From Rhodocaloribacter litoris (lineage in GTDB: Bacteria > Bacteroidota > Rhodothermia > Rhodothermales > ISCAR-4553), in assembly GCF_011682235.2 (NCBI RefSeq), contig NZ_CP076718.1, positions 1,997,354 through 2,039,501 of the forward strand: a DNA stretch of 42,148 nucleotides. Direction: 5' to 3'. Of this stretch, positions 12,638 through 13,931 are shown in pieces; within the stretch, counting starts at the first letter, position 1, and each line of letters starts with the position of its first letter. Under the pieces are notes generated by a model that was given only the letters and a program-made list of their open reading frames with translations, was not told the DNA's origin and ran no database searches. The position numbers and the translations under genes are program-made.

Positions 12638-13321
12638 TCAGATCCACCCCTTCGCCTTCGCTTCTTCGTAGCCCTTTGCACGGAGGATGGAGGCCGGGTT
12701 GTCGAGGCGTCCGTAGCCCCATTCGTTGTAGGTGGTCCGGTCGCCGTGGTAGTCCGTATGCGAGAGGTCGCGGACGATGTCGAGCACGCCCAGGTCGGCG
12801 GCCAGCTTCCACGTCTCCGCCTTCGTCAGATACATCAGCGGGGTATGGATGCGCAGGTCGACGTCGAGGGCGCGGGCGAGGGCCGTCTCCATGGCGTCGA
12901 TGAAGGCGCGGCGGCAATCCGGATAGCCGGCGTAGTCGGTCTGGCACATGCCGCCGACGAGGTCGCGGATACCCCGGTTGTAGGCGTGTGCGGCGGCGAC
13001 GGAGAGGAAGACGGCGTTGCGCCCGGGTACGAAAGAGGCCGGCAGGTCCGGGTTGCGCTCGTGCCGGGCCGAGACGTCTTTCTCGTGTTCGGTCAGCGCC
13101 GAGCCGTGAAGCATGCCCCGCAGGTCGACCACCGTGAACGGCACCCCCGCCCGTTCGGCGATGAGGCGGGCCTGCTCCAGCTCGACGCGGTGCCGTTGCC
13201 CGTAGTCGAACCCCAGGGTTTCGACGCGGGCAAAATGCTTTTGGGCCCAGAACAGGCAGGTGGTCGAGTCCTGGCCGCCGGAGAACAGCACCAGGGCCGG
13301 GCGTTTCAGGGTTTCGGACAT
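12638..13321 (-). CDS. queC: QueC-family 7-cyano-7-deazaguanine (preQ0) synthase, zinc cysteines missing
   Basis: A 227-residue PP-loop ATPase. SGGQDSTT (residues 14-21) is the ATP pyrophosphatase loop, and FDYGQRH (38-44), FVPGRN (97-102), GGMCQTDYAGYPDCR and PLMYLTKAET are the QueC blocks. The enzyme converts 7-carboxy-7-deazaguanine to preQ0 using ATP and ammonia, on the way to queuosine. The C-terminal zinc site, normally TCY...GYGCGTCPAC, reads TDY...GYGRLDNPAS here. Four cysteines are replaced by Asp190, Arg205, Asn208 and Ser211, with the surrounding sequence (GYG, P-A, LRAKGYEE) intact. The ATP site looks complete. The gene is divergent from queF, 109 bp away, which supports a role in the same pathway. 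Whether this variant works without zinc or does another reaction is open. Confidence 0.88.
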   Translation of the reverse strand: MSETLKRPALVLFSGGQDSTTCLFWAQKHFARVETLGFDYGQRHRVELEQARLIAERAGVPFTVVDLRGMLHGSALTEHEKDVSARHERNPDLPASFVPGRNAVFLSVAAAHAYNRGIRDLVGGMCQTDYAGYPDCRRAFIDAMETALARALDVDLRIHTPLMYLTKAETWKLAADLGVLDIVRDLSHTDYHGDRTTYNEWGYGRLDNPASILRAKGYEEAKAKGWI

Positions 13322-13376: not shown

Positions 13377-13430
13377 ACCGGGACGGGTTAGAGGCCCGGT
13401 TTGTACCGACCATCGCAGGCCAAAAGATCC

Positions 13431-13931
13431 ATGGGCACGACGGACCACGCGCTGCAGGAAGCCCTCGAAGCGCTCCAGGCGCAGGCGCTCGAATACACGC
13501 GCCGCTCGCTCGAACACATGGCACGCCACGGCATCCGCCCCGAAGGCCGCTTCGGGCTGTTTCTGCCGCCCGAGACGCGCCGGCAGGAGATCCACCGCCT
13601 GCCCTACGAGCACACCGCCCGGCAGGTGGTCGTCTACGAGACGGCACCCGGCGAGTTCTCCGCCCTTTGCCCCTTCTCCGGCCTGCCGGACTACGGCACC
13701 GTCCGCATCGAATACGTGCCGGGAAGCTGGATCCTGGAGCTGAAAAGCCTGAAATACTACCTTATCTCCTGGCGTAACATCGGGGCGGCCCAGGAGGACA
13801 TCACGGCAATCATGTACGAGGACCTGATGCGCCACCTCGAGGATCCCGCCTACCTGGTGCTCACGACCGACTACAACGTGCGCGGCGGCATCCACACCGT
13901 CTGCACCATCGACAGCCGCACGCAGCGCTGA
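13431..13931 (+). CDS. queF: QueF, NADPH-dependent preQ0 reductase (preQ1 synthase)
   Basis: A 166-residue T-fold protein reducing the nitrile of preQ0 to the amine preQ1 in queuosine synthesis. FSALCPFSGLPDYG contains the catalytic Cys80 and Asp87. ELKSLKYY (103-110) is the QueF signature, and NVRGGI (149-154) the NADPH-contact region. The segment that reads RNHGDFHED in the Bacillus enzyme is RNIGAAQED here: Glu122 is kept but the preceding His is Gln121. Length is that of the short, single-domain QueF form. ATG at 13431 is used; an earlier TTG at 13401 has no support. The partner gene queC is divergent. The two sit alone, with no queD or queE nearby. Confidence 0.92.
   Translation: MGTTDHALQEALEALQAQALEYTRRSLEHMARHGIRPEGRFGLFLPPETRRQEIHRLPYEHTARQVVVYETAPGEFSALCPFSGLPDYGTVRIEYVPGSWILELKSLKYYLISWRNIGAAQEDITAIMYEDLMRHLEDPAYLVLTTDYNVRGGIHTVCTIDSRTQR

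Follow-up and report, generated by a model that had tools for sequence, protein, structure and literature searches.

Canonical QueC proteins carry the hallmark C(x)8CxxCxxC, and zinc is required for them, according to PMC13329287. The same source gives the other QueC motifs (YxQxHxxE, VPxRN, YPDC, a lysine and the tyrosine of the knuckle) and reports that the E. coli QueC mutants Y35A, R99A, Y131A and Y189A lose queuosine (Q) formation. The passages of it considered here describe no zinc-site-less form within the canonical cluster. In the window, a stretch of 42,148 nucleotides of the Rhodocaloribacter litoris genome, we find a queC gene whose product lacks all four zinc-binding cysteines, and we refer to its kind as type 1. 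The features concerned are the following.

12638..13321, minus strand: queC, a type-1 Cys-less QueC (227 aa, ATG start), identified by TIGR00364, PF06508, alignment and an AF2 model
12638..12763, minus strand: C-terminal knuckle and tail of this QueC (residues 187-227, with D190, Y191, R205, N208, S211, E220, A221 and W226), defined by conservation among 66 distinct type-1 sequences
13401..13931, plus strand: queF (QueF-II, preQ1 synthase), divergent neighbour of queC (TIGR03139, 99 bits; cut-off 86.9)

The queC product scores 210.7 bits against TIGR00364, the NCBI QueC equivalog (cut-off 150.3), and 213 bits against PF06508, the Pfam QueC family (cut-off 22). Alignment to solved structures extends over residues 6-221 for B. 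subtilis QueC (3BL5) and over residues 8-194 for Erwinia QueC (2PG3); the PADLOC QueC model gives it only 51.9 bits. In length, fold and pathway context it resembles canonical QueC (cluster 1 of PF06508 in PMC13329287; TIGR00364; 3BL5 and 2PG3), and it shares the ATP loop, YxQxHxxE, VPxRN, YPDC and the lysine and tyrosine of the knuckle. It differs from canonical QueC in carrying D/x/N/S,T in place of all four zinc cysteines and in an additional tail, EA...W[IVL]. Because C(x)8CxxCxxC is absent, we class the gene, judging from its sequence, as a zinc-site-less QueC variant and not as a canonical member. The LarE and GMP synthase ATPase families of PF06508 also combine the ATP-pyrophosphatase fold with the lack of a QueC zinc motif (PMC13329287), but they are without the QueC active-site motifs, all of which are present in the R. 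litoris protein. Cap9 and QatC, QueC-like proteins of anti-phage defence, have the QueC fold in common with it (9nto, Z 22.1; 9y02, Z 15.5) but modify proteins, keep their cysteine motifs and sit in CBASS or Qat operons.

Retention of the active site is complete. In an alignment of 65 QueCs, comprising that of R. litoris and 64 others, the SGGxDS ATP loop (residues 14-19), YxQxHxxE (Y40, Q42, H44 and E47), YPDC (133-136), K167 and Y191, which lies beside the first ligand position, are all invariant, as are R101 and N102 within VPxRN (V98-N102). This motif reads VPGRN in bacterial type-1 QueCs, and T-A-G-R-N or T-S-G-R-N in many viral ones (for instance L131, L139 and L149).

The C-terminus of R. 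litoris QueC reads S187-H-T-D190-Y191-H-G-D-R-T-T-Y-N-E-W-G-Y-G-R205-L-D-N208-P-A-S211-I-L-R-A-K-G-Y-E-E-A-K-A-K-G-W-I227, where the canonical counterpart is TCYxGxR....WGYGCGxCPACxLRAKG. The first-pass annotation of this DNA had placed D190, R205, N208 and S211 at the positions of the four zinc cysteines, and the alignment with other QueCs bears out this numbering; it was also right that all four cysteines are gone without decay elsewhere, the remaining published signature residues being retained. It had further proposed looking for a clade sharing D/R/N/S at these sites. Such a subfamily is real, with the pattern D/x/N/S(T): among the 66 distinct type-1 sequences, D190 and N208 are each found in 66/66, position 211 is S in 49, T in 16 and A in one, and position 205 can be almost any residue. 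The subfamily also has a tail of its own, with E220 in 66/66 and A221 and W226 each in 65/66, followed by I, V or L; only 1/105 four-cysteine QueCs has a tryptophan like W226, and their position 221 is aromatic. A tail that co-occurs with the loss of the zinc ligands would be the expected look of a structural replacement. Within the order of R. litoris, pairwise dN/dS values are ∼0.02-0.2, and queC is under purifying selection there. The type-1 pattern therefore goes beyond chance, given 66 distinct sequences with invariant D190 and N208 and the purifying selection in the order.

AF2 modelled the R. litoris protein with a mean pLDDT of 95.2, and of 95-98 in the knuckle and last helix; the best PDB match of the model is 3BL5 (VIA-align; Z 25.8, rmsd 2.5, 192 residues, model range 6-225). 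The predicted fold of the type-1 knuckle is thus that of zinc QueC, with a secondary structure identical to that of a four-cysteine control, in models made by a method that is blind to metals and guided by the family alignment.

We consider it very probable that R. litoris QueC is a working preQ0 synthase in which a metal-free, hydrogen-bonded knuckle has replaced the structural zinc, with the tail probably bracing it. From CDG, ATP and ammonia the enzyme would make preQ0 for the queuosine of tRNA. In canonical QueC the structural zinc pins the C-terminal knuckle beside the essential tyrosine; in type 1, three of the four sites that used to hold ligands, now Asp190, Asn208 and Ser/Thr211, would form the hydrogen-bonded knuckle without metal, the second former ligand position (205) would be set free, and the conserved Glu220, Ala221 and Trp226 of the tail would probably brace the whole. 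The contacts between D190, N208 and S/T211, together with the tail, would then keep Y191 in place. We infer the absence of metal, the hydrogen bonds, the bracing and the activity. The zinc knuckle has had the status of a hallmark, whereas type 1 is a large natural subfamily with the whole active site and no zinc ligands at all, which suggests that the zinc of QueC is structural and replaceable. Type 1 moreover shows what takes over from zinc and offers sequences ready for testing. The earlier proposal of a zinc-free subfamily thus stands as regards a shared D/x/N/S(T) subfamily, for which freedom from zinc is the best reading of the sequences.

The open-licence papers yielded no assay of a Cys-less QueC, and in particular none of the biochemically normal QueCs lacking these cysteines that the first-pass annotation had named as evidence that would count against it. 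As far as these papers show, type-1 QueC is a known enzyme in a form not described before. The DNA bases of phages Rosebush and 9g have been measured (PMC6884629). We considered these phages as a biochemical precedent for Cys-less QueC and rejected them, because the proteins of 9g and of Arbiter (Rosebush species) keep their cysteines; all four are found in the QueCs of 9g, CAjan, Dp-1 and Arbiter, and the HCTV-1 protein retains the cysteines as well.

One may also envisage that the site binds a hard metal such as Mg2+ or Ca2+ through Asp190, Asn208 and Ser/Thr211, which are conserved, donate oxygen, occupy places once taken by ligands and could hold such an ion. We regard this as unlikely, since position 205 is unconstrained, Asn and Ser/Thr make weak ligands, and the co-conserved tail private to type 1 could do the bracing instead.

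A second alternative, altered chemistry, had been raised along with the zinc-free subfamily. The enzyme might stop at ADG or modify another substrate, for example the N-terminus of a protein as Cap9 and QatC do, and QueC-like proteins have indeed been repurposed more than once (PMC13329287). However, every canonical active-site motif is kept, QueC is the best solved match with QatC well behind, and the genomic setting is that of queuosine synthesis. On its two sides queC has queF and a gene resembling cation-chloride cotransporters, with no qat or CD-NTase genes adjoining; since QueF uses preQ0, the product of R. litoris QueC is most likely preQ0. The genome also encodes the remaining Q pathway: a QueD-type PTPS (83.3 bits, just below the 89.25 cut-off), QueE (located with a hand-written QueE-like probe, then confirmed by TIGR04508 at 356 bits), Tgt (492.6 bits) and QueA (459.7 bits), as well as a FolE-like ORF beside a second PTPS gene (L236). 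In R. litoris only queF adjoins queC, queD and queE lying elsewhere, but the queD/queE linkage expected of canonical QueC is found in type-1 relatives and phages. Both queF and queE lie near queC in 19/29 loci of the order, where queF-queD-queC-queE is a frequent arrangement, and on viral contigs type-1 queC sits beside dpdA (34/36), queE (35/36) and folE (34/36), the phage relatives having dpdA-queC-queD-queE-folE cassettes. Altered chemistry is for these reasons improbable, and more so than a metal swap.

Cysteine-free twins of zinc proteins, such as those of zinc ribosomal proteins, are a known kind, and R. litoris QueC could likewise be a zinc-sparing paralogue used under zinc starvation only. 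This we think very unlikely, as it is the only full-length QueC in the genome, the same holds for nearly all relatives, and neither neighbouring gene, queF or the cotransporter-like one, speaks for such a role. A second, canonical queC with this one inactive, which the first-pass annotation had considered, was looked for in the complete 4.5 Mb genome and no second full-length QueC was found; other PF06508 matches there are short ATP-loop matches within larger frames. A standing loss of zinc dependence would be compatible with this evidence. That the gene is decaying or inactive, as the loss of four normally invariant residues could suggest, is hardly conceivable with low dN/dS, replacement residues fixed across phyla and phages, and an otherwise complete pathway.

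Type 1 reaches well beyond R. litoris. The five closest among the best 80 loci of the genome collection are all Cys-less and of the same kind (two Rhodothermia, a planctomycete bin, Poribacteria and Myxococcota), and the remaining readable ones among these 80 keep their cysteines. Of 195 genomes sampled from the class, 33 belonging to the R. litoris order have a full QueC, which is type 1 in 33/33. A DNA pattern for the motif, run on 394 genomes of the phylum, matches 14 genomes of the order and one real outsider (G489), two further matches looking like chance; in a Poribacteria sample it matches 2/84. Among viruses, 36 of the best 80 loci are type 1. Zinc is probably dispensable for QueC chemistry, because the zinc-less version spans a whole order and many phages. 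Adaptation to heat, offered earlier as a possible cause, is not supported, and a trait confined to thermophiles is rejected, because type-1 members are also present in Poribacteria, in a MAG of Myxococcota and on numerous phage contigs. The cysteines are accordingly an unsafe criterion for calling QueC in bacteria and phages. In the planctomycete bin (L004 / G002), where Tgt is of the zinc type, the type-1 QueC is nested among those of Rhodothermia and may reflect a recent transfer or contamination of the bin. A Poribacteria genome has, beside its intact type-1 queC, a second, broken copy (L234, G005:C43:18500-20700) with YPDC lost and a stop in the knuckle. Three loci from another order of the same class (L229, L231 and L232) encode QueC-like proteins of ∼210 aa with cysteines and without YPDC, perhaps related to the defence QueC-like proteins.

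The sole R. litoris Tgt (L210, G000:C1:2835937-2837010) is also without its zinc residues, reading DPGLDRYVSQ...SLQNL against DPxCxCxxC...H, and these residues are absent from nearly all sampled Bacteroidota/Rhodothermia Tgts (L251-L299; exceptions G283 and G285). We considered a coupled loss of zinc in QueC and Tgt and rejected it: most Bacteroidota sampled have a zinc-less Tgt whether or not they carry type-1 QueC, and in Poribacteria, Myxococcota and the planctomycete bin type-1 QueC is accompanied by a Tgt of the zinc type. The two losses are untied, because each occurs without the other. The open-licence literature yielded no relevant papers on Rhodothermus QueC or on zinc-less Tgt in Bacteroidetes.

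Trees were computed without the knuckle columns; two larger quick ones unite type 1 in one group (SH-aLRT 97), and a smaller careful one gives no resolution. In the tree of 139 rows type 1 has as its sister, with weak support (81), a set of phage QueCs most of which have four cysteines, and bacterial type-1 members are interspersed among phage ones; a phage origin of type 1 is therefore possible. Type 1 in any case connects a bacterial order with phage 7-deazaguanine cassettes. One may tentatively speculate that the replacement (D/N/[ST] plus tail) originated in the DNA-modification cassettes of phages and passed from there to the ancestor of the Rhodothermia order, where it ousted the zinc enzyme; together with zinc-less Tgt, this would leave the late queuosine pathway zinc-free at both former zinc enzymes.

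A second Cys-less group, type 2, occurs in the phages Iggy, MMDA13 and RHEph04 and on further contigs. Its queC loci are as follows.

L211, 5992-7053: type-2 queC of Iggy
L212, 5992-6777: type-2 queC of MMDA13
L218, 277-1113: type-2 queC of RHEph04
L189, L190, L194-L198, L200, L201, L205 and L206: further type-2 queC loci

Existing annotation presents these phage QueCs as ordinary or canonical ones (PMC7472734). Like type 1, they lack the four cysteines and sit in folE/queD/queE/dpdA cassettes; unlike type 1, their knuckle follows [SA]YDGxYPP[TSN]..[ND]H.., with S/A, T/S/N, N/D and N/T/S as replacements, and they have no EA...W tail. A common origin of the two types was rejected (AU test, p = 1.6e-5). 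Since they arose separately, the QueC zinc site was lost at least twice. On two other viral contigs (L170 and L174), QueC is missing the second cysteine only and carries an insertion in the knuckle (WGWSSEQGTENDPFCPAC).
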